Shown here: piece by piece, positions 6,545 to 49,904 of the stretch
Position numbering within the stretch: position 1 is the first letter of the stretch
Layout of the letters: each line of letters starts with the position of its first letter
NCBI GenBank assembly: GCA_018697035.1
Contig: JABHSE010000001.1
Coordinates: forward strand, 93,653 to 149,119
Source: an archaeon
GTDB lineage: Archaea; Nanobdellota; Nanobdellia; Pacearchaeales; GW2011-AR1
Length of the DNA stretch: 55,467 nt
Reading direction: 5' to 3'
Translations under genes and position numbers: made by a program
The notes under the pieces: model-generated
What the model saw: only the letters and a program-made list of their open reading frames with translations
What the model was told of the DNA's origin: nothing
Database searches by the model: none

Positions 6545-6803
6545 GTAGGCAGGTTGGCGTGTTAGCCCCACGCTTTTCGCAAATGGGCTTTATGGCGGAC
6601 TGCAAGGTGGGATAGTGATATGAAGTTTCACATGTTGATAATTTGACGTTGAGGTTTTGTCCTCTTTGATCTTGCCTTGATGAATCGGGTCAGAGGGAGG
6701 AATCCCAGCAGCCCTAAGTTAAGGTTTAGGTGCTTGGAGGGTTGCAGAACTGAGGATAATTGTTTTCCTCTGTGTAGCGAATTTGAGCTTCCCACTGGCC
6801 TAC
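6545..6803 (+). ncRNA. ffs: signal recognition particle RNA (7S RNA)
   Basis: The ends pair (GTAGGC at 6545 with GCCTAC at 6798-6803). Helix 8 is unmistakable: GGGTCAGAGGGA, the GGAA tetraloop at 6699-6702, then TCCCAGCAGCCC, which includes the GGUCAG and AGCAGCC halves of the symmetric internal loop that binds SRP54. The length of about 259 nt suits an archaeal SRP RNA. It would assemble with SRP19 and SRP54 to target secreted and membrane proteins, which are very numerous in this window. The exact 5' and 3' ends are set from the terminal helix. Confidence 0.93.
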
Positions 6804-6907
6804 ATTTTTGTTTTATTCGCTAAATTCTTGATAAAATAAATACTCACGTACGCCTGTACGCTTCGCATTTTTTTACACTTCGAATTTACCAGACTAAAAT
6901 CAAAATG
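6803..6907 (+). repeat. gene-end hairpin element, copy 1 (after SRP RNA)
   Basis: The inner stem is CGTAC/GTACG (6847-6851 with 6856-6860) with loop GCCT. TTTTTTTACACTTCGAATTT follows, corresponding to the conserved bulge of the family. The outer arms CATTTTTGTTTTA (6803-6815) and CTAAAATCAAAATG (6894-6907) are largely complementary. It sits directly behind the SRP RNA and before the next promoter, so it may end or process that transcript. Confidence 0.6.
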
Positions 6908-6955
6908 TGTTTTTGAGATGGGTAGATATTTAAAATAAGGATTGTTGGTATTTGG

Positions 6956-8464
6956 ATGAAGAAGAGGGGATGGATTCGGATTTTGGAAGCAACTATCGCG
7001 GTTTTGATTGTTAGTGCTAGTATGATTGTTGTTTATTCTCAGAATCCATCGAGTGGACAGGAGACTGAAGATGTTGTTTATGATCTACAAAGAGAGGTTT
7101 TGTCGGATATTGGGATGGATAGTGATTTGAGATTGGCAGCCTTGAGAGTTGAGGAGGAAACGTCTGATGATTATAATTATATAGTGTTGAATGATTTTGT
7201 TAGAGAGAAAATTTCGGATGCTTTTGGATATTTGCTTCGGGTTTGTGATTTGGATGATCCGGATTTTTGTAAGATGGATACTTATTTTTATAAGTTTACT
7301 GTGGATTTCGATGTTTTCGTCGAGGATGTTGTTGTTTTTTCGGAGCTTGGTGATGGTGAGGGTGAGGAGGTTTATTCGCCTAAGAAAGTGAGATTATTTT
7401 TCTGGGAAGGTGGTTTTCCTGAAGATTATTGTATGGATGAATGTGTTGAGGCTGGTACTGTTCTCGATTGTTCACTTGATTCGTTGTTAGTTTTGGAAAG
7501 GATTTGTGGAGAGTTTGATAGTGATGAATGTTTGGAATATAGTGGAGTTTTTGTCGAGACTGAGGATTGTGGTGAGGCTGGTATGGTTTGTGATGATGGG
7601 GCTTGTGTTTGCTTGAGTAGTTGTTCGACTTCGGGCTTCGAGTGTGGAACGCAGGATATCTGTGGAGGTTCGGTTGATTGTGGAAGTTGTGGTTTAGGAG
7701 AGAGTTGTCTTGAGGGTACTTGTGTAGTTGATGGTTGTACAGAAACTTGTTCGAATTCGGGCTTCGAGTGTGGTCTTCAGATTATATGTGGAGGCTTTGA
7801 AGATTGTGGAAGTTGTATCGATGGAACTTGTGATGCTGGAGTTTGTGTAGATACTTCATGGAGTGAGTTGGTTTGTGTGGAAGAGGTTAGTGTGACTGGT
7901 CCTATGTGTGGTGTTGGTGGTAATGGTATGAGTCATCATTGTATTAATGTTCTTGGACATGATGGATATAATTATTTGGGAGATAGTGATTATATTAGTT
8001 TTCCTGGAGTTCCTTGTGATAGTCTTTATTATGATTGTTGGGAATATCAGAATGAGCATGAGATTTCTTGTTCTTTGAATCCTGCTTGTCCTAGTGGGTA
8101 TGTTCAGCTTTCTAAGGAGGATTGTGTGGTTGGTCCTGTGTTGGAGGCTAGTTATAGTAACCTACATTATGAATCGTCGAGTAGTAGGTGGTATTATGAT
8201 TTGGTTATATCGGAGAGTGGTGGGGTTGGTGTTACGTTGAGTCATAGGCAGAGGTGTTGGCTGTATGTAGATGGATGCGAGAGCATAGTATATGATCCCG
8301 TTGCTAAATTTGGTACGGATCAAATAACTGCTAATGGACAAGTTTCTGTTGATGACAGATGGTTTTGGACAAGTAGGCATCCTCAACAAATGATTGAGAC
8401 ATGGTATGGAGAAGATGAAAATGGAAATGCTGTAGAAGTTAGTTATAGTATTGATACAGATTAG
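6956..8464 (+). CDS. Cys-rich surface or pilus-like protein with duplicated Cys module
   Basis: The 502-residue protein starts MKKRGWIRILEATIAVLIVSASMIVVYSQ, which looks like a type III (prepilin) signal: KRG, then a glutamate and a hydrophobic helix. At about residues 220-300 a Cys-rich module occurs twice, each with GFECG, ICGG and DCGSC. The remaining C-terminal part is rich in Trp, Tyr and Cys and has no second membrane segment. It is probably exported and displayed through its N-terminal helix, perhaps as a pilus-associated protein. A TTTAAAATAA box about 20 bases upstream supports this start. A fragment of a paralogue lies at 8883-8960. The function is unknown. Confidence 0.8.
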   Translation: MKKRGWIRILEATIAVLIVSASMIVVYSQNPSSGQETEDVVYDLQREVLSDIGMDSDLRLAALRVEEETSDDYNYIVLNDFVREKISDAFGYLLRVCDLDDPDFCKMDTYFYKFTVDFDVFVEDVVVFSELGDGEGEEVYSPKKVRLFFWEGGFPEDYCMDECVEAGTVLDCSLDSLLVLERICGEFDSDECLEYSGVFVETEDCGEAGMVCDDGACVCLSSCSTSGFECGTQDICGGSVDCGSCGLGESCLEGTCVVDGCTETCSNSGFECGLQIICGGFEDCGSCIDGTCDAGVCVDTSWSELVCVEEVSVTGPMCGVGGNGMSHHCINVLGHDGYNYLGDSDYISFPGVPCDSLYYDCWEYQNEHEISCSLNPACPSGYVQLSKEDCVVGPVLEASYSNLHYESSSSRWYYDLVISESGGVGVTLSHRQRCWLYVDGCESIVYDPVAKFGTDQITANGQVSVDDRWFWTSRHPQQMIETWYGEDENGNAVEVSYSIDTD

Positions 8465-8510
8465 ATTATAGAAAAATAAATTTTTGAGAATATATAAATC
8501 TCTTATTAAA

Positions 8511-8846
8511 TTAGTCTCCGCCTGATCCGCCGGTTCCACCAGCACCAGCTCCTGCACCAGCTCCAGCACCAGCTCCAGCACCTGCTCCAGCACCTGCTCC
8601 AGCACCAGCTCCTGCACCTGCTCCACCAGCACCTGCAGTTCCAGCACCATTTGTTTGCCCAGTTCCTTGATCATGTACGCAGCCCGTTAAACTTCCTGTT
8701 GCTAAAAATAGAGTTGCTGCTAGTCCGGTTGCTACGCCGATGTTTCTTATTGTTTTTTTATAATTTGGAGAATTAGAATCTTCAGTTGTAGTCTTATATG
8801 ATTCTCCGAAATCTTTTATTTCTGAATTGTAGTTGTCTGTTTTCAT
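8511..8846 (-). CDS. putative lipoprotein with Gly-Ala repeat tail
   Basis: The 111-residue protein has about 30 polar residues, then a hydrophobic stretch ending in GSLTGCVHD, a lipobox-like LTGC, so the cysteine may be lipid-modified. The rest is almost pure alternating Gly-Ala (about 32 residues, roughly 74-105), closing with GGTGGSGGD. A second gene of the same design lies at 42815-43459. The unusually long segment before the hydrophobic stretch suggests that a start nearer to it may be used, for instance the later in-frame codons. Function is unknown; a flexible spacer or a degradation-resistant tail are both possible. Confidence 0.7.
   Translation of the reverse strand: MKTDNYNSEIKDFGESYKTTTEDSNSPNYKKTIRNIGVATGLAATLFLATGSLTGCVHDQGTGQTNGAGTAGAGGAGAGAGAGAGAGAGAGAGAGAGAGAGAGGTGGSGGD
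8541..8640 (-). repeat. Gly-Ala-coding short tandem repeat
   Basis: On the coding strand the units are GGTGCT, GGAGCT and GGAGCA in mixed order. Third positions vary while the Gly-Ala pattern is kept, so the protein pattern itself seems to be under selection and the array is not simply a fresh slippage product. Confidence 0.8.
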
Positions 8847-8882
8847 GTTACTACTTTGTAATCTAACTATTTAAGTGTTTCG

Positions 8883-8960
8883 GTTGGTTCTGGTGTTGAT
8901 GATAATGAGGTGAATCATTATTGTATTAATGTTCTTGGGTGTAATGGGCTAGATTTTTAA
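8883..8960 (+). pseudogene. remnant of a paralogue of the 6956-8464 gene
   Basis: Read from 8883 the frame gives VGSGVDDNEVNHYCINVLGC before a stop at 8958-8960. This matches VGGNGMSHHCINVLGH inside the protein encoded at 6956-8464. No start codon or upstream coding sequence belongs to it, so it is a short leftover of a deleted or rearranged copy. The bases from 8961 to 9058 hold only the promoter of the next gene. Confidence 0.7.
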
Positions 8961-9058
8961 CAGAATTATTGCAGTGGTAAATCCTTTAGGTTGTCTTGAT
9001 TTAATTTCTAAAAATTATAATCGGAAGCTATAAAAAGTAATATAGTTACCATTCTCTC

Positions 9059-10174
9059 ATGGTACTGGCGTTCATGAAACCCCTGAAAAATATCTTAAAA
9101 TTTTCAGAAGAAATAAATAAATCTATAGAAATAATTCATCCAAGAATAGCGAATAAGAATTACCTTTCATTTGTTAGTGGGAAAATAAAATATAGTGACC
9201 TTAGTAAAGAGATAACCGAGAGTTTATTTGTGTCAAACTGGGATATGTTAGATAGAAAGAAGACGAATCTTAGGCCTTTATTATTTTTGTTATGTGTAGG
9301 AGGTATGGGTAAGAATCCAGAAAAATATGTTAAATATGCATCGGCATTAGAGATGATTCATAATGGAACTTTAATTCATGATGATATAGAAGATAATGCT
9401 AAACTCAGAAGAGGGGACAAGCCCATTTATTCAAAATATGGCCTAGATATAGCAGTGAATTCTGCAAATTTATTATACTTTGCACCATTCTTATTTTTTA
9501 AGAAATACCCTAAAGAATTTTCAAGAAAAGTAAAACTAAGAGCTTATGATTCTTTATTAGAACATCTAAACAGAGTTACTTGGGGACAAGGGATAGATAT
9601 TTATTGGCATGGTCAATCAAAGGTACCATCTATAAGAGATTATTTACAAATGTGTTGTTATAAAACTGGTGCAATTGATAGAATGGTCTTTTCTCTTGCA
9701 GGAATATTATCTAAAAAGAATAATAAAAAAGTTTCTGAATTAGAAAATTTTGGAGAAAGGTTGGGAATTTGCGTCCAGATACATGACGATTTTTCAGATG
9801 TTTGTTCAGTAAGTAAAAAAGAGAATAGGAACAAAAGTATTGGAAATGATATCTCTGAGGGAAAAAAGTCCCTTGTAAATATTTTCGCGTTACAAAGGCT
9901 AAGTGAGAAAGACGCAAAGAAGTTACTTAATATATTAAATGAACAAACTCATGATAAAAAGAAAATTTTACAAGCACTAGAATTAATTAAGAAAAGTGGC
10001 TCGCTAGAAGAGACATTAGAATTCGCGAGAAAAGAATTTGATATATTAAAGACGAAGTGTGTAAAAATTTTTAATTCCAAATATGGTATAATTATGCGGA
10101 ACTTTTTAGACGCTATGAAGAAGGATATGGAGACTAAATATTCAGAAATGGAAAAAGATGGGGAAAATAATTAG
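9059..10174 (+). CDS. polyprenyl (isoprenoid) diphosphate synthase family protein
   Basis: The 371-residue protein has both aspartate-rich motifs of trans-prenyltransferases, HDDIED (Asp108-Asp112) and HDDFSD (Asp243-Asp247), plus RRGDKPIYSKYG after the first. These bind magnesium and the allylic diphosphate, so it should be able to elongate prenyl diphosphates. Archaea need such an enzyme for lipids, but this copy stands at the head of a cluster with kinases and a glycosyltransferase and is longer than usual. A TATAAAA box 25-30 bases upstream (9029-9035) supports the ATG at 9059. Codon use is richer in AAA, ATA and TTA than in the surrounding genome, pointing to transfer. The product chain length is unknown. 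Confidence 0.88.
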   Translation: MVLAFMKPLKNILKFSEEINKSIEIIHPRIANKNYLSFVSGKIKYSDLSKEITESLFVSNWDMLDRKKTNLRPLLFLLCVGGMGKNPEKYVKYASALEMIHNGTLIHDDIEDNAKLRRGDKPIYSKYGLDIAVNSANLLYFAPFLFFKKYPKEFSRKVKLRAYDSLLEHLNRVTWGQGIDIYWHGQSKVPSIRDYLQMCCYKTGAIDRMVFSLAGILSKKNNKKVSELENFGERLGICVQIHDDFSDVCSVSKKENRNKSIGNDISEGKKSLVNIFALQRLSEKDAKKLLNILNEQTHDKKKILQALELIKKSGSLEETLEFARKEFDILKTKCVKIFNSKYGIIMRNFLDAMKKDMETKYSEMEKDGENN

Positions 10175-10763
10175 TTTCGAAGGAATACATGGGTGTGGAA
10201 AGTCAACTCAAGCAGAGATGTTATATTCTTACTTATTAGGTAAAAATATTAATGTAAAACATTTCTCATCGCGAGACAAGGTTTTATCAAAATATATAAT
10301 GGGATTTTTAGAGAAAGAAGGGCCACAGAAGGCAGAAATTCTTTTTCATTTAGCCTTGGCAAATGACCTTACATTGAATGAAAAGTTTGAAACAAACGCA
10401 GATAGTATATTTATTTTGGATAGATATATTCATACAAATATAGTATCGGCCTATATGGCTGGAAAGAGCATGAAGTGGGCAGTGGAAAAGTCTAAGGTTC
10501 TTATATCCCCAGATATTACCTATTTAATTGATTTACCTTCTCGAAGCGCACATGAAAGAAAAGATGGGCAAACTAACGGGATAGAAAGAGGAGATTTTCA
10601 ATCAGAATTTTTAGGGTTAGGATTTATTGATTATCAAGATAAAATGCGTAAATCATACTTAGACGTTGCGAAGAAAGATTCTAGAATGATAGTTATAGAT
10701 GGAAGAAGGGGCAGGAATGACTGTCATGAAGAAATTTTAAAATCTTTGGAAGATGGATTGTAA
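10158..10763 (+). CDS. thymidylate kinase-like P-loop kinase
   Basis: The 201-residue protein has a Walker A motif FEGIHGCGKST (residues 7-17), LDRYIHTNIVSAYMAG near residue 90 (the DR[YH] motif of thymidylate kinases) and a lid-like ERKDGQTNGIERGDFQ. Length and layout match the TMK family, which phosphorylates dTMP. The glycine-to-histidine and serine-to-cysteine changes in the P-loop region, and the genomic setting, leave open that the substrate is another nucleotide or a phosphorylated metabolite. It overlaps the prenyl synthase gene by 17 bases and abuts the glycosyltransferase gene, so the three form one transcript. Confidence 0.85.
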   Translation: MGKIISFEGIHGCGKSTQAEMLYSYLLGKNINVKHFSSRDKVLSKYIMGFLEKEGPQKAEILFHLALANDLTLNEKFETNADSIFILDRYIHTNIVSAYMAGKSMKWAVEKSKVLISPDITYLIDLPSRSAHERKDGQTNGIERGDFQSEFLGLGFIDYQDKMRKSYLDVAKKDSRMIVIDGRRGRNDCHEEILKSLEDGL

Positions 10764-12560: not shown

Positions 12561-12639
12561 GAAGGCAAAGCTTTTCCTTCTTTTTAATTTTATCTGTATT
12601 ATAAAGAAAATTTAAAAACAAAGAGAGCTTGTTTATAGT

Positions 12640-13375: not shown

Positions 13376-13436
13376 TTGATGGGGAATTTGGAAGTTGTTG
13401 TGAAAGTTTTATAAAGTATATTGGGTTTGGTTTTGT

Positions 13437-16267: not shown

Positions 16268-17797
16268 ATGGCTATTAAGATAAATTTGAATCCGCCGGTT
16301 CCGAACATTCCTAGTTTCGAGGATAAGACTAAGATTGATGTTAGGTATATGGTTATTGCGCCTTATGTTTCGATTCACGTTCATTATGATGTGAAACTGG
16401 GTGAGGTGATTTATGACGTTGAAGAGCCAATGTTGGATGAGGCCGAGAAGGGGAACCTTGTGAGGATTGAAGCGGCGATGAGAGAGGTTGTGAATACCAA
16501 TATGAATGAGAAGACTCAAGGGCTTGATGCGTTGTTGGATTATGTTGACAAGGTGGCGAGGTTGATTATTTCAGAGTTGGGATTGGAAATTAGTGAGGCT
16601 TCTTTCTATAAGATTTTTTATTATTTGTATAGGGATTTTATTGGGTTGAATAAAATTGAGCCAATGATGAAGGATTATTTTATTGAAGATATTGAATGTA
16701 ATGGTGTTGATACTCCTATGTATATTGTTCATCGGGTTTTTCGGAATATTAAGACGACGACGAGGTTTGAAGATGTGGAGAAGTTGTCAAGTTTTGTTGA
16801 GAAGTTGGCACAGAAGACGGGGCGTTATATTTCGTATGCGAATCCGATTTTGGATGGTAGTTTGCCTGATGGGTCTAGGATTAATGCGACGTATACTCAG
16901 GATATTAGTTCTAAAGGTCCGACGTTTACTATCCGTAAATTTACTAAGACGCCGTGGACACCTATACAGCTGATTGGTTTTCATACGGTGAGTCCTGAGA
17001 TGTTGGCGTTTTTCTGGTTGGCCTTGCAGTATCAATCTAATCTGATGATTGTTGGTGGGACTGCTTCTGGAAAAACTACGTTGCTTAATGCTTTGGCATT
17101 TTTTATTCCGCAGGAGAATAGAGTTGTTTCTATTGAAGATACACGAGAGCTTAATTTACCTAGGGAGAATTGGTTGCCGTCGGTTGTTCGGAGTGGAGTT
17201 TCTAGTGCTGGTATTGGTAATGTCGACATGTTTAGTTTGCTTCGGGCTTCGTTTAGACAGAATCCTGATTATGTGATTGTTGGTGAGGTGCGAGGTAAGG
17301 AGGCTAGTGTTTTGTTTCAAGGGATGGCCTCTGGGCACGCTTCGATTTCTACGATGCATGGAGATTCTGTTGATTCGATTATTCGGAGATTGATGACGCC
17401 ACCGATTAGTCTTAGTCCGATGCTTGTTAATGGGCTTGATGTTATGGCTATTATGACGCATGCGATTGTTAAGGGAAAGGAGACACGTCGTCTTCGTGAG
17501 GTTGTCGAGGTTGGAAATATTGTTGAGAGTGGTGCGGCTGTGACTAATACTCCGTTTAAATGGAATCCTGCTGATGATAAATTTTATTATGCTGCAGAGA
17601 GTAAGGTTTTTGATAAGATTGCTCAAAAGTATGGTTTGACTCGAGAGGTTTTGAAGAAGGAGTTTGAGATGAGGACGCGGTTGCTTTATGCGTTGTTTCA
17701 GAATAAGGTTTTTAGTTATGAGGATGTTCAGAAAGCGATTAATGATTATGCTAAGACGCCTGAAGTTATCCTGAAGAAGTATAATTTAGTTTCTTAG
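16268..17797 (+). CDS. type IV pilus/archaellum secretion ATPase (FlaI/TadA/GspE family)
   Basis: The 509-residue protein has Walker A GGTASGKTT near residue 263, the Asp box SIEDTREL, Walker B in PDYVIVGEVRGKEA and the His box STMHGDS. This is the full motor of the type II/IV secretion superfamily. It would power pilus assembly from the cytoplasmic face by ATP hydrolysis with the membrane proteins encoded at 18633 and 19940. A GGTGAT site 5 bases before ATG 16268 decides the start. The stop codon region forms one arm of a long hairpin (17783-17886). Confidence 0.95.
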   Translation: MAIKINLNPPVPNIPSFEDKTKIDVRYMVIAPYVSIHVHYDVKLGEVIYDVEEPMLDEAEKGNLVRIEAAMREVVNTNMNEKTQGLDALLDYVDKVARLIISELGLEISEASFYKIFYYLYRDFIGLNKIEPMMKDYFIEDIECNGVDTPMYIVHRVFRNIKTTTRFEDVEKLSSFVEKLAQKTGRYISYANPILDGSLPDGSRINATYTQDISSKGPTFTIRKFTKTPWTPIQLIGFHTVSPEMLAFFWLALQYQSNLMIVGGTASGKTTLLNALAFFIPQENRVVSIEDTRELNLPRENWLPSVVRSGVSSAGIGNVDMFSLLRASFRQNPDYVIVGEVRGKEASVLFQGMASGHASISTMHGDSVDSIIRRLMTPPISLSPMLVNGLDVMAIMTHAIVKGKETRRLREVVEVGNIVESGAAVTNTPFKWNPADDKFYYAAESKVFDKIAQKYGLTREVLKKEFEMRTRLLYALFQNKVFSYEDVQKAINDYAKTPEVILKKYNLVS

Positions 17798-17886
17798 CGC
17801 CAATTTCTTGGTAAAAAATTTCTCATGTACACTTGTACACATCGAAATTCTTTACACTGCGAACTTGTCTGCTAAGAAACTAAATT
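17783..17886 (+). repeat. gene-end hairpin element, copy 2 (after the secretion ATPase)
   Basis: The outer arms are a perfect 16-base inverted repeat, AATTTAGTTTCTTAGC at 17783-17798 (the last codons and stop of the ATPase gene) and its complement at 17871-17886. Inside lie AATTTC/GAAATT and the inner stem TGTACA/TGTACA (17826-17831 with 17834-17839). The right side carries the conserved unpaired ACACTGCGAACTTGTCTG. This is the clearest member of the family. Confidence 0.75.
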
Positions 17887-17942
17887 GCTAGATTGAAGTA
17901 GAGTGTAATAATTTTTATAAAGTGCAGATTTGTTTTGGTTTT

Positions 17943-20761: not shown

Positions 20762-20791
20762 TTATATAAATAGGGGGAGTGTTATGTGATA

Positions 20792-21514
20792 ATGGAGAGA
20801 TTGATGGGGAAAAGGGGTTCGGCACATTTTGAAATGGTTATAGGCTTTGTGTTTTTTATAGGCTTTGTGTTTTTTCTTTTTATGACTTTGAATCCCTGGG
20901 CTAATTCATCTTTGCCCAATTCTGCAGTGATGGGACTTCGGGATTCTTTAAGGAGTAATACTAGTATTACATTGTTTAATATTTTTGTGGAGGCTGATTA
21001 TGTTGGGAGTGATGATTGTTTTTATATTAATTTAAGTGATGAGCTTTATGCTTATGATGTTGGAGGTAAGGGAACTTTGGTGACTCTTCTTGGAGGTGAT
21101 GATGTTGAATCAGAATTGCAATCTTCTTCTGTTAAGTTAAATCTTGAGAAGGGTGGTTCGGGCGATGATTTTTTTAAGGTTGCTATTTCTTCGGAATTTG
21201 ATAGTGATAGTGTTGCTCCTTGTGAAGAGTTGATTGACTTTGAATTGGGTGGTGTTGTTGAGACGGAGGTTTTTTCATATAGTGGATTGAATGATACTAG
21301 GAATAGATATTATTCTGATTATATTGAATTAAAGCGAAATTTGAGAGTTCCTGATGTTTTTGATTTTGCGATTGTTATTGAGGGTCTTCCAGAGCTTATA
21401 ATGGAAAGGAATGTCCCCGATGGTGTGGATGTTTTAGCTAAGGAATATGTTGTTAAGGTTTTGAAAAATGATAGTTCTGTTAGTAATGAGAGAGTTAGTT
21501 TCCGAATCTGGTGA
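20792..21514 (+). CDS. pilin-like exported protein
   Basis: The protein of about 240 residues starts MERLMGKRGSAHFEMVIGFV. KRG precedes the cut, and a glutamate stands at position 5 of the mature form before a long hydrophobic helix. The rest is a beta-rich domain without membrane segments. A TATATAAAT box about 22-28 bases upstream supports ATG 20792; a GTG 6 bases earlier also has a GGGGGAG site. It is the last pilin-like gene of the locus and may be a minor subunit or adhesin. Confidence 0.75.
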   Translation: MERLMGKRGSAHFEMVIGFVFFIGFVFFLFMTLNPWANSSLPNSAVMGLRDSLRSNTSITLFNIFVEADYVGSDDCFYINLSDELYAYDVGGKGTLVTLLGGDDVESELQSSSVKLNLEKGGSGDDFFKVAISSEFDSDSVAPCEELIDFELGGVVETEVFSYSGLNDTRNRYYSDYIELKRNLRVPDVFDFAIVIEGLPELIMERNVPDGVDVLAKEYVVKVLKNDSSVSNERVSFRIW

Positions 21515-21539
21515 GCTCCCTTTTAAAAAAAGGTTCCTC

Positions 21540-21676
21540 GGAATCAAAACTTAGTTAGCGAAACTGACGTTTCGTATTTGATGCAAAATAAAATTTCTTA
21601 ACGGTTCCGCCCTTTCCCTTCGGGCCGGACAACCTGCGACTAAAATTTTATTTTGCGGACTTGGCTGCTTTTGTTA
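21540..21676 (+). repeat. long gene-end hairpin, related larger element
   Basis: GCAAAATAAAATTT (21583-21596) and its perfect complement (21643-21656) make a 14-pair stem. The loop holds a second stem with CCC-TTCG-GGG (around 21618). After the stem comes GCGGACTTGGCTGC, which resembles the conserved GCGAACTTGTCTGC of the smaller elements. A separate hairpin CGAAAC/GTTTCG lies at about 21559-21574. It follows a pilin-like gene on the same strand, as the other elements do. Confidence 0.55.
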
Positions 21677-21712
21677 TGATAATTTTATATATTGTGATTG
21701 GTAAGTTTTTGT

Positions 21713-23023
21713 ATGCCGTTTGATGTTATTGTTGGTAGGAATGAAAGTGATAAGAAGGATTTTGGTAATCGAGGCTTGGCTTATTTGGGGAAGAGTTTTG
21801 TTACGATGGGGAACTATACTTCTCTTTCTAATCCTATATATATGGATGTTGCGCGGAGTCATGTTGTTTTGGTTTCTGGGAAGAGAGGGAGCGGTAAGTC
21901 GTATACTTTAGGAGTGATGGCTGAGGCTTTGGGGGATTTGGGGGTTGAGGAATCTGGGAATATTGCGTCGGTGATTTTTGACACGATGGGGATTTATTGG
22001 ACTATGAAGTATAAAAATTTGAAGGATGCGGAGTTGCTTGGGGAGGCAGGGCTTGAGGCGAAGAATGTTAATGTGAAGGTTTTTACACCGTTTGGTTATT
22101 ATAACGAGTTTAAGGATAAGGGGATTGATGTTGATGCGGAGTTTGCGATTAAGATTTCGGAGTTGGAGGCTTCGGATTGGGTTTCTCTTTTTGAGTTGAA
22201 GTTTACCGACCCTGTTGCTGTTTTGATTGAGGGGGTTGTGTCGGAGCTTCAGGAGAGTAAAGGGAGTTTTAGTTTTGAGGATATTCATGAGTTGATTGGT
22301 CGGGCTGAGAATGTTAATCAGGATGTTAAGAATGCCGTTGGTGCTTTGTTTGATGCGGCTGAGACTTGGAAGGTTTTTGATGAGGTGAAGGGGACGGCTG
22401 TTCGGGATTTGATTGAGCCTGGTGTTTCAACTGTTATTGATTTGTCTATGTATGCCTCGCTTGGGGCTTTCAATGTTCGAGCTTTGATTATCGGATTAGT
22501 GTCGAAGAAGATTTTTAATGAGAGGATGAAGTCGAGGAAGGACGAGGAGATCCAGGCTGTTTCGCATGGGGCGGATTTTGCTCGGTTTCGAGTTGCGAGG
22601 GAGATGCCGTTAGTTTGGATTTTTATTGATGAGGCTCATGAATTTTTGCCGCATGAAGAAGTCGGGAAAACTCCGGCGACGGATGCTTTGGTTCAGTTGT
22701 TGAGGGAGGGGCGGCAGCCTGGGGTATCTATGGTTTTGGCGACGCAGCAGCCTGGGAAGATTCATAGTGACGCTATGACTCAAAGTGATATTGTTATTTC
22801 GCATAGAGTGACGGCTCGGCTTGATGTTGATGCGCTTAATGATGTGACGCAGAGTTATATGAAGAGTGATATTAGTGATAAGTTGAATGGTTTGCCTCAT
22901 TTGAAGGGGTCTGCAATAATTTTAGATGATAATTCGGAGAGGATTTATCCAATGAGGGTTCGGCCTAGGTTTACGTGGCATGGTGGAGAAGCTCCTATGG
23001 CCATAAAGAAAAGTGATTTCTAG
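21713..23023 (+). CDS. HerA/DUF87-like ATPase
   Basis: The protein of about 436 residues has Walker A VSGKRGSGKSYTLG, Walker B VWIFIDEAHEFLP, and LLREGRQPGVSMVLATQQPG, the HerA-FtsK block. HerA proteins are hexameric DNA translocases that normally act with NurA nuclease in DNA end processing; other members drive conjugation-like or defence systems. No nurA gene is in the window. ATG 21713 is chosen because a TTTTATATA box lies about 25 bases upstream; an ATG 15 bases earlier is in frame. It follows the pilus genes directly but has its own promoter. Confidence 0.85.
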   Translation: MPFDVIVGRNESDKKDFGNRGLAYLGKSFVTMGNYTSLSNPIYMDVARSHVVLVSGKRGSGKSYTLGVMAEALGDLGVEESGNIASVIFDTMGIYWTMKYKNLKDAELLGEAGLEAKNVNVKVFTPFGYYNEFKDKGIDVDAEFAIKISELEASDWVSLFELKFTDPVAVLIEGVVSELQESKGSFSFEDIHELIGRAENVNQDVKNAVGALFDAAETWKVFDEVKGTAVRDLIEPGVSTVIDLSMYASLGAFNVRALIIGLVSKKIFNERMKSRKDEEIQAVSHGADFARFRVAREMPLVWIFIDEAHEFLPHEEVGKTPATDALVQLLREGRQPGVSMVLATQQPGKIHSDAMTQSDIVISHRVTARLDVDALNDVTQSYMKSDISDKLNGLPHLKGSAIILDDNSERIYPMRVRPRFTWHGGEAPMAIKKSDF

Positions 23024-23027
23024 TGGT

Positions 23028-23107
23028 AATTTCTTGGTAAAATATTTTCTCATGTGCGCCTGCACACATCGAAAATTTTTACGCTGCGAACTTACTTGCT
23101 AAGAATT
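23028..23107 (+). repeat. gene-end hairpin element, copy 3 (after the HerA-like gene)
   Basis: The inner stem is TGTGC/GCACA (23053-23057 with 23062-23066) where copy 2 has TGTACA, so the pairing is kept while bases change. AATTTCTTGG at the left pairs with CTAAGAATT at the right. The conserved right-hand segment is ACGCTGCGAACTTACTTG. Confidence 0.7.
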
Positions 23108-23171
23108 GGATTTTGCTTTAGGGTTTTTAGTTGGAAATATTTATAAAGAGGTTATTACTAGAAATGTTAGT

Positions 23172-38650: not shown

Positions 38651-38680
38651 TTTTATAAAGTTGGATTGTGTTTTTTTGTT

Positions 38681-39910
38681 ATGAATATGAAGGATGTTTT
38701 ATCGGAAGAACTGGAATTGATTTCTGTTTCCAAAAGTGAGGTTTTGAGGCTGAAGAAGATATCTGCGGATTTTATTAAATCTTTGAAGAGAGAGGGTCTT
38801 AGGGCGTATGTTGGAGGTAGTTTGGCGAAGGGGACACTTGTTGTTAAGAATATACAAGATGTTGATATTTTTGTTGTGTTTGATTATAGTGAGGATATTT
38901 TGAAGTTGGAAGGGATTTTGAAGAAGATGGAGTTGCCGGGGATATTGAAGCGAGTTCATGGGTCGCGAGATTATTTTCATGTTGTTATGGATAATTTGGT
39001 TTTGGAAGTTGTTCCGGTTGTTAAGAATAGGGATCCGGAATTGGCGGAGAATGTTACTGATGTTAGTTTGAGTCATGTTAAATATATTGTGGGAGAAATT
39101 AAGAAGAAGCCTGGGATTGCAGATGAGATAAAGTTGGCGAAGGCGTTTACTGGGGCCCAGAGGTGTTATGGTGCAGAGGGTTATATTCGGGGATTTAGTG
39201 GATATTCATTGGAGGTTTTGGTTATTCATTTTGGTGGATTTGTTAAGTTTTTGAAGGGTGTTACTAAGGGGGGTGTGGTTGACCCTATGAAATATTTTAA
39301 GGGTGAGCGAGAGGTTATGAGGGAGTTGAATGCTAGTAAGTTGCAGGGGCCGCTTGTTGTTGTTGATCCGACTTATAAGTTTAGGAATGTTTGTGCAGGT
39401 CTGGGACTTGGAACTTTTGAGAAGTTTTTGGAGGCTAGTAAGGATTTTATTAAGAAGCCGAGTTTGGAGTTTTTTGTTAAGAAGGATTTAGATATTGAGG
39501 GGATTAGGGAACTTGCTTCTAAAAAAAGAGCTAGGTTTTTAGAGTTGAGTCTTTCGACTGATAGGCAGGAAGGTGATATTGCTGGGACTAAGATGAAGAA
39601 GATTTTTCGGTTTTTTGTTCGGGAGCTTGGACGACAAGGTCAGATGGTTTTGAGTAGTGAGTTTGATTATTCGGGAAGTGGTCAAGTTGCGAAGGGGTAT
39701 TTGGTTGTTTTAGAGAAAGGAGAGGTCGAGGTTCGAGGGCCGTCTGTTGGGTTGGAGAAGGAGGCTAAGTTATTTTGTAAGGCTAAAGGGGATGCTGTTT
39801 TTAAGAGGAAGGGATTTTGGTGGTTTCGGAAGGTTGTTAGCGTTGAGGGAATTTTGAAGTTTGTTAAGAAGGTTGAAGGGGAGATGGGTGCTGGAATAAA
39901 TTTATTTTAA
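38681..39910 (+). CDS. cca: CCA-adding enzyme (tRNA nucleotidyltransferase, class I)
   Basis: The protein of about 409 residues has the polymerase-beta type site GGSLAKGT then DVDIFVVF, whose aspartates hold the metal, and VHGSRDYFHV and DPTYKFRNVCAGL further on. This is the archaeal class I layout. It adds CCA to tRNA 3' ends; tRNA-Ser at 6412 indeed lacks an encoded CCA. ATG 38681 is chosen since a TTTTATAAAG box (38651-38660) ends 21 bases upstream; an in-frame start 15 bases earlier is less likely. Its 3' end forms an arm of a hairpin element. Confidence 0.94.
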   Translation: MNMKDVLSEELELISVSKSEVLRLKKISADFIKSLKREGLRAYVGGSLAKGTLVVKNIQDVDIFVVFDYSEDILKLEGILKKMELPGILKRVHGSRDYFHVVMDNLVLEVVPVVKNRDPELAENVTDVSLSHVKYIVGEIKKKPGIADEIKLAKAFTGAQRCYGAEGYIRGFSGYSLEVLVIHFGGFVKFLKGVTKGGVVDPMKYFKGEREVMRELNASKLQGPLVVVDPTYKFRNVCAGLGLGTFEKFLEASKDFIKKPSLEFFVKKDLDIEGIRELASKKRARFLELSLSTDRQEGDIAGTKMKKIFRFFVRELGRQGQMVLSSEFDYSGSGQVAKGYLVVLEKGEVEVRGPSVGLEKEAKLFCKAKGDAVFKRKGFWWFRKVVSVEGILKFVKKVEGEMGAGINLF

Positions 39911-39998
39911 CGACAACTTCTTGGTAAAAAATTTCTCACGTACGTCTGTGCGCCACGAAATTTTTTACACTGCGAATTTGCCTGTTAAAATGAAATTT
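39898..39998 (+). repeat. gene-end hairpin element, copy 4 (after cca)
   Basis: The outer arms AAATTTATTTTAAC (39898-39911, the last codons of cca) and GTTAAAATGAAATTT (39984-39998) are complementary with one extra base. The inner stem CGTAC/GTGCG (39939-39943 with 39948-39952) includes a G-U pair valid only for plus-strand RNA. The conserved part reads ACACTGCGAATTTGCCTG. Confidence 0.72.
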
Positions 39999-40039
39999 AT
40001 TATATTGTGAAGTAAGGGCTAGTTTAATATTTAGAATAA

Positions 40040-41155: not shown

Positions 41156-41641
41156 ATGAATTGGAAAATGTTGGGAGTTTTTTTATTGGGTTTTGGCAGT
41201 TGTGCTGTTATGGTTTTTGGTTTTGGGACTGAGTTGGAGGTTCCGTTTACGGGGTTGGGAGTTGTGAGCTGGGAGTCAGGAGAGATTAGTGCGCCTTCGG
41301 ATTATTTGAGTGAGGAAGATATTGTTGTTTCAGATGATAGGGTAATTCTGCGGATTAAGGGTGTGACGCTTTCGAGTTATGCTGATTCGGGAAGCATGGT
41401 GCCGGTTTTGGATGAGGGGGCTAATGGGATTCGGGTTGTTCCTTTGAGTGAGGATGATATTGAGGTTGGGGATATCGTTAGTTTTCGGATGCTTGGTGTT
41501 TTGGTTGTGCATCGGGTTGTTGAGAAGGGTGTTGATGAGGATGGGATTTATTTTATTGTGAAGGGTGATGCTAATTTGGTTGGGGATGGTAGGATTCGGT
41601 TTAGAGATATTGAATATAAGACTGTGGGGATAATTTATTAA
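41156..41641 (+). CDS. signal peptidase I (S26, archaeal type)
   Basis: The 161-residue protein has an N-terminal membrane helix (MLGVFLLGFGSCAVMVFGFG), SYADSGSMVPVLDEGAN with the catalytic serine in SGSM, DIEVGDIVSFR, VVHRVVEKG with the histidine that replaces lysine in archaeal and ER-type enzymes, and GDAN. It removes signal peptides from exported proteins, of which this window encodes many. A GGTTTAAGTAG box ends 21 bases before the ATG. It converges with the presenilin-like protease gene across a hairpin element. Confidence 0.92.
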   Translation: MNWKMLGVFLLGFGSCAVMVFGFGTELEVPFTGLGVVSWESGEISAPSDYLSEEDIVVSDDRVILRIKGVTLSSYADSGSMVPVLDEGANGIRVVPLSEDDIEVGDIVSFRMLGVLVVHRVVEKGVDEDGIYFIVKGDANLVGDGRIRFRDIEYKTVGIIY

Positions 41642-41731
41642 TTTCAGTGTAAATTTCTTGGTAAAGAATTCTTTATGTACTGGAGTACACATCAGAATTT
41701 TTTACGCTGCGAAATTTCCTACCGAAATTAA
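41638..41731 (+). repeat. gene-end hairpin element, copy 5 (after signal peptidase)
   Basis: The outer arms are TTAATTTC (41638-41645, overlapping the stop codon) and GAAATTAA (41724-41731). GGTAAA and TTTTAC form the middle stem and TGTACT/AGTACA (41676-41681 with 41684-41689) is a perfect inner stem with loop GG. The conserved segment reads ACGCTGCGAAATTTCCT. Confidence 0.72.
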
Positions 41732-41746
41732 AAATTACTTAGAGAT

Positions 41747-42691: not shown

Positions 42692-42814
42692 ATTTTTTGT
42701 TGACTGAAGAGGTATATAAGATTTGGGATTTTTATTTTAATGACTATATAATTACAATAATACTTATAAAGTTAAATTTTGTGTGATATTTATTCTGAGG
42801 TGATGCTATGAAAA

Positions 42815-43459
42815 ATGGAAAAGAAAAGTACCTCAAGAAAAGTTGTAGAAGCTGCGGCTACATCTCTTGCTGCTGCTGCGACGATTTTCGGGTGTGCTTC
42901 CAATGATATTTATAATAATCCTTCCTTTCAGAGATATGTGGCTGATGAGCAGCCTCAAAAAAAGATATCTTATTTTTTAGATGAAGAAGTGTTTGGGAAG
43001 TATGATTTTCATAAGGTTAAAGATTCTGATGGAGATATTACCTATCTTGTTTCTGCTAGAGGTGATCCTAAGCTTCAATTTTCTGAAGAAGTTCTTAGTA
43101 AGAGTGAAAAAATAAAATCTGTTGAAGATTTGGAGGAGATGACCAAGCATCAGCGTCTTACGGTAGGGCAGGTTCATACTCATTATAATGATGAGGCTAA
43201 TATAGATTATGTTATTTTATGGACCTATGAACCACTTTCTCCTAATTTGTTGGGCTCATCAGATGTTCAAGTTTTGAAGTATGATAGACTCGATGGAGTT
43301 GTTAAGGTTGGGTTTGGTAATAACTTTAAGATTTTGGAAGAAGGCGGCGGTGGTGCTGCTGGTGCTGGAGCTGGTGCTGGAGCAGGTGCTGGTGGTGCTG
43401 GAGCTGGTGCTGGAGCTGCAGGTGCTGGTGGTGGAAGTGGGGGGTCTGTTGGAGGATAA
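42815..43459 (+). CDS. putative lipoprotein with Gly-Ala tail
   Basis: The 214-residue protein has a short basic start, a hydrophobic stretch and a lipobox-like IFGCASND, so the cysteine near residue 27 may carry lipid. A domain of about 145 residues follows (YFLDEEVFGKYDFHKVKD, TVGQVHTHYNDEANIDYVIL), then a Gly-Ala-rich tail of about 35 residues ending GGSGGSVGG. The design matches the protein at 8511. GAGGTGAT stands about 10 bases before ATG 42815. The next gene starts 1 base after its stop, so both are probably one transcript. Confidence 0.75.
   Translation: MEKKSTSRKVVEAAATSLAAAATIFGCASNDIYNNPSFQRYVADEQPQKKISYFLDEEVFGKYDFHKVKDSDGDITYLVSARGDPKLQFSEEVLSKSEKIKSVEDLEEMTKHQRLTVGQVHTHYNDEANIDYVILWTYEPLSPNLLGSSDVQVLKYDRLDGVVKVGFGNNFKILEEGGGGAAGAGAGAGAGAGGAGAGAGAAGAGGGSGGSVGG
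43350..43455 (+). repeat. Gly-Ala-coding repeat in the second lipoprotein gene
   Basis: Units of GGTGCT, GGAGCT and GGAGCA alternate irregularly, as in the array at 8541-8640. Synonymous third positions vary and Gly-Gly or Ala-Ala steps interrupt the pattern. Confidence 0.8.
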
Positions 43460-43460
43460 A

Positions 43461-46256: not shown

Positions 46257-46288
46257 ATTTTATAAAATGGTTCTTGTTGGTAGATAGC

Positions 46289-46489
46289 ATGGATAGTATG
46301 CCAATAGATAAGATTCATTTTGAAAAGTTTTTATCCATTGAGGATGTTCGTAAAGAATCGGGTTTGGATGGTAGGTTGCCAGAGATGTGGGAAGATGATA
46401 AATTGTTTGAAGTTGGAAATTATTATTTGATGCGTAATAAGGATGGTAGTGCTTTTGGATATAGATTAGGTTCTATTCATTATTCTTAA
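46289..46489 (+). CDS. small protein of unknown function
   Basis: The 66-residue protein MDSMPIDKIHFEKFLSIEDV... is soluble-looking with a Trp-Asp-Asp-rich middle and ends GYRLGSIHYS. A TTTTATAAAA box (46258-46267) ends about 21 bases before ATG 46289, fitting the leaderless pattern; an ATG 15 bases upstream is also in frame. It converges with the aCPSF1 gene with only 5 bases between stops. No family is recognised. Confidence 0.6.
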   Translation: MDSMPIDKIHFEKFLSIEDVRKESGLDGRLPEMWEDDKLFEVGNYYLMRNKDGSAFGYRLGSIHYS

Positions 46490-46494
46490 TTAAA

Positions 46495-48384
46495 TTATCT
46501 TAATCTTATTGTTTCGAGATTTTTAGGGACAGTGGTTTCGATTCGTTGAGATTTGTAGATTGAAGATGCTAGGTCTAGGCACTTTGATTGTTCGCCGTGG
46601 TTGATTATAGCTCGTCTTGGTTTTGGGTTGATGTTGTTTACGAATGCCATGAGCTCGTTTCGTGAGGAGTGTCCGGAGAATCCGTCCATCGAAATTACTT
46701 TTAATTTGATTTGTGCGAGTTCCATTTTTCCATTTACCTCGAATTTTACTTCCTTTGCTCCTTCTTTGATTTGTCGTCCGACTCCTCCAGCTGGTTGATA
46801 ACATGAAAGACAGAGACCGTTATTTGGTGAATCTGCAAACTCTCTAAGGTATTCAACTGCTGCTCCGCCTACGAGCATCCCTGATGTTGCTAGGATTATA
46901 CAGGGGCCACCTTCGATTACGTTTTTTCGTTCTTGTGGTGAGCCGACTTGAGAGAAAATTTCTGAGGTGAATGGGTTATTGTCTGCGAAGATGTTTGCTC
47001 TAAGTGCGTTGGATAGGAAGTCTGGGTATGCTGTGTGGATTGCGTTGATGTCCCATATCATTCCATCTATGTAGATTGGGACTTTCGGGACTTTTCCTGA
47101 GCGCATTGCGTCTTCTAGGATTAGCATTTTCTCCTGAGCGTGACCTGTTCCTAGTTCTGGTAATAAGACTTTTCCTCCGCCTTGTATTACGTCGTTGATG
47201 AATGTTAGGAGTTCTTCTTCGGAGTTTTTTCGTGATGGGTAGTTATTGTCTCTACCTCCGTATGTTGCCTCTAGTTGTAATGTTTCTAGTCGTGGAAAAT
47301 ATGTGGCTGCGGCCTCGAGGGCTCGGGATTTTCCGAATTTTATATCGCCAGAGTAGAGGTAATTATGTAGACCGTTTCCGATGTTGAAGTGAATCATCGA
47401 GGAGCCTAGTGTGTGGCCTGCGTTGTACATTGTGATTCGGATGTCTGGTGTGATGTCGGTGACTTCTTGGTAGTTTAGTGTGATTGAGTGTTTGACCATG
47501 CTTCGGATGTCTGTTGACTTGAAGAGTGGGGCTGCGGCCTGTTTGTAGGCTACTCCTATGAAGTCTAGTGCCATTAGGGCTGAGATGTCTCGTGTTGGGG
47601 CTGTCATGTATACTGGTCCTTTGTAGCCCATTTTGTACAAGTAAGGGATTAATCCTGAATGGTCGAGATGTGCGTGGGATAGGATTACTGCGTCTATTGC
47701 TTCGAGGTCGAGTTCTGGTGCTTCAAGGTATGGGTATTTGTTTTTGCCGCTTGAGGATACGTCGACTCCGCAGTCTATTAGGACTTTTGATATTGGGGTT
47801 TGCATTAGAAAGCATGAACGGCCTACCTGTCTACCGCCGCCTAGAGCGGTTATTCTGACCCATTCTTCCATCTTATCTGGATTCCATTCTTTGTATATTT
47901 TCTCGCCTATGTCGTTTAGGAATTTTTTACGGTAAGAATTATCCATATAAAGAACTTCTCTGATTTTATCTGTGATTTTGGATTTGATTGCGGCTGATCT
48001 TTGAACTTGGGGTGTCCAATACGTGTTGATTTTTACTTCTCTTAATAGTGAGCCACCTTTTCCTATTGCTAATCCGGGTTTTTTTGTTTCGATTATTACA
48101 ATACTTCTTTGTGGGTCGAAGATTACTCTCTCTATTTCGGCTTCGCGTGGAATTATTTGTCTTATTTTTTGTTCGGTCTCTTCCTGAGAGAGAAGAATTT
48201 TTTTGTCGGCTCGAAGCTCGAGTCTTTTTTTGATCGTGTTTACGATTTCCTTGACTTTAGAGTCGCCGTTTTTGAAGAATGCTGTGTCTGTTGTGTAGAC
48301 TACTATGTTTGCTCCTTCGAATATTGTTGAGCCTACTACACCTCTCGGTAGTTGTTCTTCGATTGTTTTTAGAATGTCTGCCAT
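46495..48384 (-). CDS. aCPSF1 (KH-domain beta-CASP ribonuclease, transcription terminator factor)
   Basis: The 629-residue protein has N-terminal KH domains (about residues 1-140, with LAIGKGGSLLREVK), a metallo-beta-lactamase core with SHAHLDHSG near residue 235, GHTLGSSMIHF, and the beta-CASP part with HSSRNELMAFV and NHGEQSKC near the end. In archaea aCPSF1 (FttA) cuts nascent RNA at U-rich sites and ends transcription. It lies 13 bases after the proteasome beta gene, an order kept in several archaeal lineages. The U-rich RNA ends and hairpins of this window would be natural substrates, which is inference. Confidence 0.95.
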   Translation of the reverse strand: MADILKTIEEQLPRGVVGSTIFEGANIVVYTTDTAFFKNGDSKVKEIVNTIKKRLELRADKKILLSQEETEQKIRQIIPREAEIERVIFDPQRSIVIIETKKPGLAIGKGGSLLREVKINTYWTPQVQRSAAIKSKITDKIREVLYMDNSYRKKFLNDIGEKIYKEWNPDKMEEWVRITALGGGRQVGRSCFLMQTPISKVLIDCGVDVSSSGKNKYPYLEAPELDLEAIDAVILSHAHLDHSGLIPYLYKMGYKGPVYMTAPTRDISALMALDFIGVAYKQAAAPLFKSTDIRSMVKHSITLNYQEVTDITPDIRITMYNAGHTLGSSMIHFNIGNGLHNYLYSGDIKFGKSRALEAAATYFPRLETLQLEATYGGRDNNYPSRKNSEEELLTFINDVIQGGGKVLLPELGTGHAQEKMLILEDAMRSGKVPKVPIYIDGMIWDINAIHTAYPDFLSNALRANIFADNNPFTSEIFSQVGSPQERKNVIEGGPCIILATSGMLVGGAAVEYLREFADSPNNGLCLSCYQPAGGVGRQIKEGAKEVKFEVNGKMELAQIKLKVISMDGFSGHSSRNELMAFVNNINPKPRRAIINHGEQSKCLDLASSIYKSQRIETTVPKNLETIRLR

Positions 48385-48397
48385 TTGAATTTGATAA

Positions 48398-49060
48398 TTA
48401 ATTATGTTCTTTGTACACTGTCTCTACTTTTTGTTTTGCGACGTGTTTTATGCCGTCTTTTGTGATTGTGAAAACGTCTATGCCACATCCTGATGCTGTG
48501 TCTCTTTGAGATGAAGATTTTATTCCTTCTATTGCTAATTCTACTCCCTGTTCGATAGTTAGATTTTCCTTATATTGTCTTTCTAAGAGTCCCCATATGT
48601 ATTGCATTCCGCTTCCTGATGCGTCGTAATCTGTGACTTGTACGATTGCTCCATCCGGTCCGATATTATATAGACTTGTCTTTCCACTTGTGTCTACTCC
48701 TGCTACTAGGTTTCCTACTATTGAAGGGATCATGGATGGTCTCCTTATTGTTTGGAATTTCATTGTTGCGATGAAGTTGACGGATTCCTTTACTGTTGGT
48801 CTTTTCCTATCCTTTAATTCTTTGATTTTGAGTTGTGCTCCGATTAGTTTGTGGTTTACTTGTGCATCAGAGACTGTACCTGCCATTGACATTATTAGAT
48901 AGTCGTTTATTTTGTGGGTTTTTTGGAAATTTTTGTCTGCTACGAGTTGTCCGCCCATGGTTACTTTTTTGTCTGATGCCATTACTACTCCGTCTTTACA
49001 GACTATTCCCACTAAACTTGTTCCTGTCGCTAATATATTTTTTTTCAAATCTTCGTCCAT
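48398..49060 (-). CDS. psmB: proteasome beta subunit
   Basis: The 220-residue protein has a short propeptide (13 residues, ending ATG) before the catalytic Thr14 in TSLVGIVCKDGVVMASDKK, where Asp and Lys of the active site are also seen. YDASGSGMQYIWG and TASGCGIDVFTI are typical of archaeal beta subunits. It forms the 20S core with an alpha subunit encoded elsewhere and degrades unfolded proteins. It is the first gene of a two-gene unit with aCPSF1. Confidence 0.96.
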   Translation of the reverse strand: MDEDLKKNILATGTSLVGIVCKDGVVMASDKKVTMGGQLVADKNFQKTHKINDYLIMSMAGTVSDAQVNHKLIGAQLKIKELKDRKRPTVKESVNFIATMKFQTIRRPSMIPSIVGNLVAGVDTSGKTSLYNIGPDGAIVQVTDYDASGSGMQYIWGLLERQYKENLTIEQGVELAIEGIKSSSQRDTASGCGIDVFTITKDGIKHVAKQKVETVYKEHN

Positions 49061-49179
49061 CTTATAATTTAGAATTACTTCTAGAATTTATGATATTTTG
49101 AGGATTTTTTTATTTATAAGTTTTTGGGTGGCGGGTTGGTGTGTGTAAGTTTTATAAGGGAGAATTGTATTGGGGAGTT

Positions 49180-49581
49180 ATGAGTTATGAGGAATTGTTG
49201 GAATCTGCGTATGAGGATGTTGAGGTTAGTGAGGAATGTGAGCGTTTTGAGGTTGTGAATGTTAAGGGGCATCATGAGGGTGTTCGTACTGTGATTTCGA
49301 ATTTTGGGAAGGTTGTGGCTTGTTTGAGGAGGCGCCCTGAGCATTTGTTGAAGTTTTTGGGTAAGGAGCTTGGGATTCAGGGTGAGATTAAGGGTGAGCG
49401 GTTGATTTTGTCTAGGAAGTTGTCTAGTAAAGATGTGAATGCAAAGATTAAAAAGTATGCTAAGTTATATGTAATTTGTGTGAAATGCGGTAAGCCGGAT
49501 AGTGAGTTGGACGAAGAAGGTGGGAAGTTGTTCGTTCGATGTTTGGCTTGTGGTAATAAAAATGAAGTTCACAAGATATGA
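49180..49581 (+). CDS. translation initiation factor aIF2 beta subunit
   Basis: The protein of about 133 residues has the alpha-beta core (NVKGHHEGVRTVISNFGKVVACLRRRPEHLLKFLGKELG) and the C-terminal zinc ribbon CVKCGKPD and CLACGNKNE. It is part of the aIF2 complex that brings initiator tRNA to the ribosome. ATG 49180 is set by a TTTTATAAGG box (49150-49159) ending 21 bases upstream; a longer frame 39 bases before would start within the promoter. The following Zn-protein gene is 27 bases away. Confidence 0.95.
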   Translation: MSYEELLESAYEDVEVSEECERFEVVNVKGHHEGVRTVISNFGKVVACLRRRPEHLLKFLGKELGIQGEIKGERLILSRKLSSKDVNAKIKKYAKLYVICVKCGKPDSELDEEGGKLFVRCLACGNKNEVHKI

Positions 49582-49608
49582 AGGAATTAAATGTATGAGG
49601 AGGAAAAA

Positions 49609-49803
49609 ATGACAATTGAAGGAAGATGTATGAAATGTAAAGAGCAGAAGGAAATGAAGGACGCTGAGATGCACGTAACTTCGCGAGGTGGTTTTATGGC
49701 GAAAGGGAAGTGTTCTGTTTGTGGATGTGGAATGTGCAGGATTATGTCGAAAGTTAATGCTGAAAAGGCGGTTAAAGACGGCGAAGCGAAAAAAGCTTAT
49801 TAA
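49609..49803 (+). CDS. DUF5679-type Zn-ribbon protein
   Basis: The protein of about 64 residues MTIEGRCMKCKEQKEMKDAE... has CMKCK and CSVCGCGMCRI, a treble Cys pair set typical of DUF5679 zinc proteins. GAGGAGG lies 6 bases before ATG 49609, so this start is favoured over one 18 bases earlier. It is cotranscribed with aIF2-beta. Function is unknown, probably nucleic acid linked. Confidence 0.8.
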   Translation: MTIEGRCMKCKEQKEMKDAEMHVTSRGGFMAKGKCSVCGCGMCRIMSKVNAEKAVKDGEAKKAY

Positions 49804-49904
49804 TTTTTATTTTTAGCAGTTTATACTTCGTTGAAAGAACGCTTGCGTACGTTTGTACGCGGCGCAACCTTTCGCCTTGTCTAAACCAGCTATAAATCAA
49901 AATT
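49802..49904 (+). repeat. gene-end hairpin element, copy 6 (after the DUF5679 gene)
   Basis: The outer arms AATTTTTATTTTTAGC (49802-49817, starting in the stop codon) and GCTATAAATCAAAATT (49889-49904) pair at 14 of 16 positions. The inner stem GCGTAC/GTACGC (49845-49850 with 49855-49860) is perfect with loop GTTT. The right part (GGCGCAACCTTTCGCCTTG) is a diverged form of the conserved segment. Confidence 0.68.

Follow-up and report, generated by a model that had tools for sequence, protein, structure and literature searches.

A dispersed family of imperfect hairpins behind genes on the G-rich strand in one family of Pacearchaeota

Hairpins and host genes in the window

The stretch analyzed here (hereafter the window) comprises 55,467 nucleotides of an archaeal genome of the order Pacearchaeales (G000:C1:93653-149119; genome of 809 kb, 84% complete), and it contains six copies of an imperfect hairpin element that stand behind genes on the plus strand, all in a single orientation. 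A first-pass annotation, made from the letters of the stretch, had described six related elements together with a larger one at 21540, and read them as RNA structures with a function at the 3' end, for example terminators, stability elements or protein binding sites. The six are indeed related, five being of a type that we call A and one of a type that we call B, and their common strand and orientation hold for all of their matches to the covariance models R1 (built from the five type A elements) and R2 (built from the type B core). The larger hairpin, considered as a long copy of the same element, was dropped from the set, as it belongs to a separate family with relatives in 12 of the 16 genus members. 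The elements and their host genes are collected in Table 1.

Table 1. Hairpin elements and host genes in the window (window coordinates; E, expectation value).
Feature	Position	Strand	Evidence and remarks
SRP (7S) RNA gene, host of first element	6543..6805	+	Rfam RF01857 Archaea_SRP, E 8.5e-15, under gathering score
Type A hairpin element	6801..6911	+	R1 89 bits (match 6804-6905), R2 54 bits; directly behind SRP RNA gene
Type II/IV secretion ATPase gene, host	16268..17797	+	PF00437 E 1.4e-29
Type A hairpin element	17781..17890	+	R1 113 bits (match 17784-17884); stop TAG 17795-17797 within outer stem
Larger hairpin, separate family	21535..21690	+	20 nt behind stop of 20786-21514; DNA matches in 12/16 genus genomes, folds; unmatched by R1, R2
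HerA-like ATPase gene, host	21698..23023	+	PF01935 E 3e-9
Type A hairpin element	23007..23117	+	R1 98 bits (match 23010-23111)
Archaeal CCA tRNA nucleotidyltransferase gene, host	38666..39910	+	PF09249 E 7e-25
Type A hairpin element	39895..40003	+	R1 108 bits (match 39897-39997)
Signal peptidase I-like gene, host	41156..41641	+	TIGR02228 E 1.8e-10, under cut-off
Type A hairpin element	41630..41740	+	R1 105 bits (match 41634-41734)
70-aa cysteine-rich protein gene, host	49591..49803	+	Open reading frame ending at element; no NCBIfam match
Type B hairpin element	49800..49908	+	R2 115 bits; R1 match 49803-49902

Each type A element (6803, 17783, 23028, 39898 and 41638 in the annotation's numbering, of which the third actually begins at about 23010) forms one imperfect hairpin of about 107 nt that consists, in order, of an outer stem, a short inner stem, an internal loop UUG/ACUGC, a stem of 10-12 bp, an internal loop UYR/CNNC, a 5-bp tip stem and a 4-nt loop. 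R1 matches these five at E 4e-20 to 3e-26 and reaches the sixth, at 49802, with E 8e-6; this type B element shares the outer stem and the tip with type A and differs in its core. The inner stems quoted in the annotation are correct. Its one-sided conserved segment holds for type A only (RCTGCGAACTTGYCTG), the type B core carrying GCCTTGTCTAAACC instead. The conserved region has a sharp left edge at the stop codon, which is usually TAA, and ends at AAAATTGTT, spanning about 107 nt; the foot of the element reads TAA(TTTT). A search of Rfam returned no match to the element, either at the gathering score or at E<=1. A third core, neither A nor B (AATTTTGGCGTTG...CGCC), was seen at the EF-1A and DnaG sites of the related genomes G003 and G006 (L183, L206).

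The elements had been described as lying directly after genes, and for five of the six this applies to a protein gene, whose stop codon is inside the outer stem or a few bases away; the element at 6804 follows the signal recognition particle (SRP) RNA gene and no protein gene.

Base pairing and strand polarity

The covariation with a conserved bulge that had been proposed for these hairpins is very strongly borne out when the copies are compared with shuffles, and the internal loops are conserved. Over 42 type A copies, 95.2% of the pair cells hold a standard pair, as against 78.2% after shuffling and 36-50% when columns are slid by 1-3 positions, and both partners of the pair have changed in 240 cells, as against 71 when shuffled. 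The corresponding values for 39 type B copies are 94.1% standard pair cells and 218 double changes, as against 50. For neither type did any of 500 shuffles reach the observed values, and double changes are commoner than one-sided ones.

The mismatches indicate at which level this pairing is kept. In DNA, G-T and A-C mismatches are equally bad, whereas pairing kept in RNA predicts G-U far above A-C, the more so as the strands concerned are rich in G and T. Leaving out positions that have a wobble pair as the consensus, the non-fixed mismatches in the helices comprise 54 G-U and 65 A-C cells, or 51 and 52 when each column and genome is counted once, while a control of 43 tRNAs from stretches of the same genomes, read at fixed stem positions, gives 50 G-U and 1 A-C (Fisher p=1.5e-12). 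Since G-U does not exceed A-C, unlike in the tRNAs, the constraint is best placed in the DNA: what is conserved over large divergence is the pairing within a hairpin or cruciform of DNA. The asymmetric internal loops are nearly invariant (T42, C62 and C65 occur in all 42 type A copies) while the tip loop is saturated, which means that a specific shape is kept rather than perfect symmetry. Template switching during replication can also keep the arms of a hairpin complementary and thereby give paired double changes (PMC8794818), and the double changes seen here can stem from it as well as from selection on a DNA hairpin, two sources that are not separable in these data. Covariation of the textbook kind, in hairpins that follow genes in a single orientation, does not point to a functional RNA here, and the wobble test, which separates pairing kept in DNA from pairing kept in RNA, could serve for other candidate motifs.

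The polarity of the elements is equally strict. GC skew in the window genome is extreme and sustained, the whole window included. It is about +0.40 along contig C1 and, for C3 and C4, about -0.4 in most of the parts sampled, and the copies are all on the plus strand of C1 and all on the minus strand of C3 and C4. The whole-genome scan with covariance models that had been suggested as a check on copy number and strand bias thus yields 24 copies (R1 and R2 combined) with a uniform strand on each contig. Multi-copy contigs of relatives are also strand-uniform, the sole mixing being secondary hits at the same palindrome. Taking all 108 copies analyzed, relatives included, the GC skew of the flanks in the orientation of the core is above zero for 106; restricted to flanks lying beyond 1.5 kb, the same holds for 96 of 99. 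Neighboring open reading frames other than the host are co-oriented in only 319 of 501 cases (319 to 182; 64%). Gene-strand statistics such as this one cover the stretches around the loci, and "leading strand" here denotes the strand inferred from GC skew. One exceptional copy, L190 (G010:C36, about 3205-3304), has its core inverted relative to a convergent gene whose stop it abuts; with the core inverted, the host of this copy, too, is a gene of the G-rich strand. Leading strands are rich in G and T, and stop usage on them is TAA 101, TAG 72 and TGA 79, compared with TAA 85, TAG 15 and TGA 16 on lagging strands.

Placement, occupancy and distribution

The stop codon of the co-oriented upstream reading frame usually falls on one of three positions of the model (108 copies with flanks), with 38 TAA and 1 TAG stops ending exactly at position 1 and two further groups at positions 7 and 14. 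No copy was found inside any open reading frame among the 108. Hosts across the genomes include EF-1A, EF-2, uS7, a NusA-like protein, TBP, archaeal DnaG, RPA, RadA, SRP RNA, signal peptidase and secretion ATPases, several of these names resting on our reading of the sequences. The placement raises a concrete question, namely by what means a DNA element locates reading-frame ends, or how it comes to survive nowhere else.

Copies are present in 13 of the 16 members of the genus, three members having none, and range from 0 to 24 per genome. Four other genera of the same family carry copies (16 in G107, 13 in G162), and none were found outside this one family in the remaining genomes among the 200 of the order that were searched. 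The element is restricted to one Pacearchaeota family; contigs carrying it bear names of Candidatus Pacearchaeota or Nanoarchaeota. A search of viral contigs with the exact core patterns of types A and B gave no match. Copies within genes, in both orientations and lacking covariation, which the first-pass annotation had named as signs of a passive mobile repeat, are not what we observe, and the element is therefore also not simply a decaying passive repeat.

Orthologous sites allow filled and empty states to be compared. Behind EF-1A, where the retained terminator was examined in detail, 5 sites are filled and 9 empty. In several of the empty sites a small hairpin and T-tracts lie directly behind the stop (e.g., TAAGGTCGAAAAGACCTATTTTTTATTTTT), and in the filled ones the element stands between the stop and the downstream T-tracts, the small hairpin being still visible in G003 and G010. 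At RadA, where the stop keeps its place, 4 sites are filled and 5 empty. On a species tree of four proteins the filled sites are dispersed, and within this one genus orthologous genes have repeatedly acquired or lost the element. Occupancy by orthologue is mixed, some sites being common to up to five species and others private; behind the CCA-transferase and T2SSE orthologues of all relatives, for example, no element was found. Sister species can differ in the core found at one and the same stop, as at HerA, which has type A in the window genome and type B in G009 with the outer stem alike, and the uS7 and DnaG sites likewise show mixed core types between species. Outer stems hold genome-specific sequences. 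In a tree built from the elements, genomes, cores and sites are intermingled, and a simple vertical history finds no support. The core swaps and the genome-specific outer stems would fit gene conversion or replacement among copies. Direct repeats in the flanks equal those in shuffled flanks, giving no sign of target-site duplication above chance, and pairing beyond the TAA, that is a gene-specific extension of the stem past the stop, is not above shuffled flanks. On inspection by eye, single cases had seemed suggestive of one or the other, namely EF-1A in G003 and G000.

Other repeats occur in the window. The larger hairpin family (21535-21690, with relatives L263-L272) has GCAAATTAAAATTT...AAATTTTAATTTGC flanking a GC-rich tip; it appears to be mostly on one strand per contig, and small palindromic modules often adjoin it. 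There are also low-complexity tandem repeats, with 12-nt units at 8521 (8521-8652; the reverse complement matches 43346-43443), and Gly/Ala-type 9- and 12-nt tandem units near 43346, while the window closes with a tandem repeat of 24 bp (55356-55451).

Possible explanations and comparison with known systems

The explanation that we favor, at about even confidence, sees these hairpins as copies of a palindromic DNA element that is non-autonomous, resembles repetitive extragenic palindromic (REP) sequences or IS200/IS605 insertion sequences and is mobilized as a single-strand hairpin. It starts from the directly observed anatomy, polarity, DNA-level pairing, patchiness and absence of duplications above chance. 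On the lagging-strand template, identical in sequence to the G-rich strand, the hairpin would be exposed and be recognized through its loops by an enzyme; for IS200/IS605, lagging-strand targeting by hairpin recognition is established (PMC6006769). Copies between stop and terminator may survive since that slot is harmless, and the complementarity of the arms may additionally be restored by template switching in replication. Copying or movement would proceed through single-stranded DNA, as in REP and IS200/IS605. Several observations weigh against this explanation. The Y1 HUH transposase family PF01797 was not found in G000, G002, G003, G008, G009 and G011, which carry 6-24 copies (the genomes searched being 69-88% complete), and the Y1 loci of other genus members have no element at their ends. 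At the EF-1A site of G003 the element is flanked by a 9-nt direct repeat, AAACTTTAA. Of the TAA triplets in the 3' flanks of leading-strand genes only about 21% are stop codons, whereas most copies are placed exactly at a stop; simple insertion, following just any TAA, therefore fails to account for the placement. Finally, the orthologues of EF-1A, uS7, DnaG, RadA, RPA and SRP RNA are occupied in several species, above the expectation for random insertion, and such repeated occupancy suggests retention or function.

A rival explanation is a cis-acting RNA element in the 3' untranslated region of core genes, with the terminating ribosome opening the outer stem that holds the stop and the inner hairpin stabilizing, processing or tuning the mRNA. 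The 38 TAA stops at model position 1, the core or highly expressed hosts (EF-1A, EF-2, uS7, NusA, TBP, DnaG, RadA, RPA and SRP RNA), the recurrent occupancy and the conserved loops are all in its favor. In E. coli, REPs that lie no more than 15 nt from a stop codon stall ribosomes. REPs less than 16 nt from a stop lower translation, as PMC12306157 states with reference to earlier work. We nevertheless consider it unlikely, and with it the functional 3' RNA structure of the first-pass annotation, since G-U pairs are not preferred, the SRP RNA host is untranslated, EF-1A retains its native terminator downstream, occupancy is patchy, the L190 core is inverted relative to the abutting gene, and no element stands behind lagging-strand genes, a strict tie to the replication strand that is not predicted by RNA function. 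The pairing constraint at the DNA level, the mostly core hosts, the co-direction with replication and the long-term maintenance with compensated arms would instead suit a host element acting as DNA, in which a topoisomerase or nucleoid protein binds hairpins that are extruded behind strongly transcribed genes co-directional with replication, much as gyrase binds REP sequences and bacterial interspersed mosaic elements (BIMEs) in enterobacteria. However, a copy number of 0 to 24 within one genus, with three members having none, means that such an element is not essential, and we know of no protein that binds these hairpins; this proposal seems to us quite improbable.

Mutation bias may be considered by itself: template-switch correction of quasi-palindromes would keep the arms complementary, and the elements would be inert remains of an expansion long past. 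The excess of double over one-sided changes and a mismatch spectrum that looks neutral agree with this, and the mechanism is documented (PMC8794818), but its outcome should not include asymmetric loops that stay nearly invariant beside a saturated tip loop, and the hairpins are not perfect palindromes; we give it a low probability. Integron attC sites, or other tyrosine-recombinase sites, also come to mind, as these are imperfect single-strand hairpins of fitting size behind genes in one orientation and archaeal integrons exist (PMC9668308). This reading is already largely refuted and can be regarded as extremely improbable: an integron integrase above the TIGR02249 cut-off occurs in 0 of 56 genomes, the partial integrase matches are XerC/D-like and skip profile positions of about 184-236, no RYYYAAC/GTTRRRY core sites could be read at the element ends, and the hosts are dispersed core genes rather than cassettes.

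A variant of the favored mobile element would be a DNA hairpin of a new kind, directed to stop codons, whose spread depends on the replication fork and possibly on an altered replisome, the copy-rich genomes being those with a bacterial-type DnaE; we regard this as a doubtful, rather speculative proposal. The bacterial-type DNA polymerase III alpha family PF07733 occurs in precisely those seven genus members that are richest in copies (6-24) and in none of the nine with 0-5, and a rank test of its presence against copies per Mb gives p=0.0002, a value uncorrected for relatedness or assembly gaps. In the window genome the DnaE gene itself (G000:C4:83989-84762, minus strand; locus L044) has a type B element at its own stop. 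There is an earlier report of DNA polymerase III in Pacearchaeota (PMC8204110). The repeat load is connected with extreme GC skew; its connection with a bacterial replicative polymerase, here in an archaeon, is one of correlation only.

Among known systems, miniature inverted-repeat transposable elements (MITEs) are likewise short and non-autonomous with complementary ends, but the present ends form one hairpin, show strict strand polarity and lack target-site duplication above chance. Intrinsic terminators share the stem-loop behind genes; they differ in that at EF-1A the native hairpin and/or T-tract is kept downstream of the element, which itself has no wobble preference. The attC sites resemble it as folded single-strand hairpins with extrahelical bases, behind genes, in one orientation and more similar within than between genomes, and are set apart by the missing integrase and core sites and by the dispersed core hosts. 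With IS200/IS605 and their non-autonomous derivatives the element has in common that it bears a hairpin, that its orientation is tied to the lagging-strand template and that it would insert next to a short target without target duplication. It departs from them as a single hairpin without separate left and right ends, with a TAA target only at stops, with no transposase found in most carriers and with ends not common to any autonomous tnpA copy at the Y1 loci of the genus.

REP sequences, associated with TnpA-REP (REP-associated tyrosine transposases, RAYT), measure 20-40 nt, against about 107 nt here (three to five times longer), and have a conserved tetranucleotide GTAG/CGTC at the foot in place of TAA(TTTT), which contains neither GTAG nor CGTC. 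They also lack the bipartite build with exchangeable cores, the constant leading-strand polarity and the exact position at the stop, and no RAYT-like Y1 protein was seen in the genomes richest in the element. Because foot sequence, Y1 partner and shared ends all differ in this way, we do not file the element as a member of REP or IS200. The likeness to REP is still considerable, both being short imperfect palindromes in many copies, strictly extragenic, of several related types per genome and often near stops, and the hairpins described here may be seen as a dispersed REP-like repeat family in DPANN archaea that is distinguished by strict replication-strand polarity and placement at stop codons.

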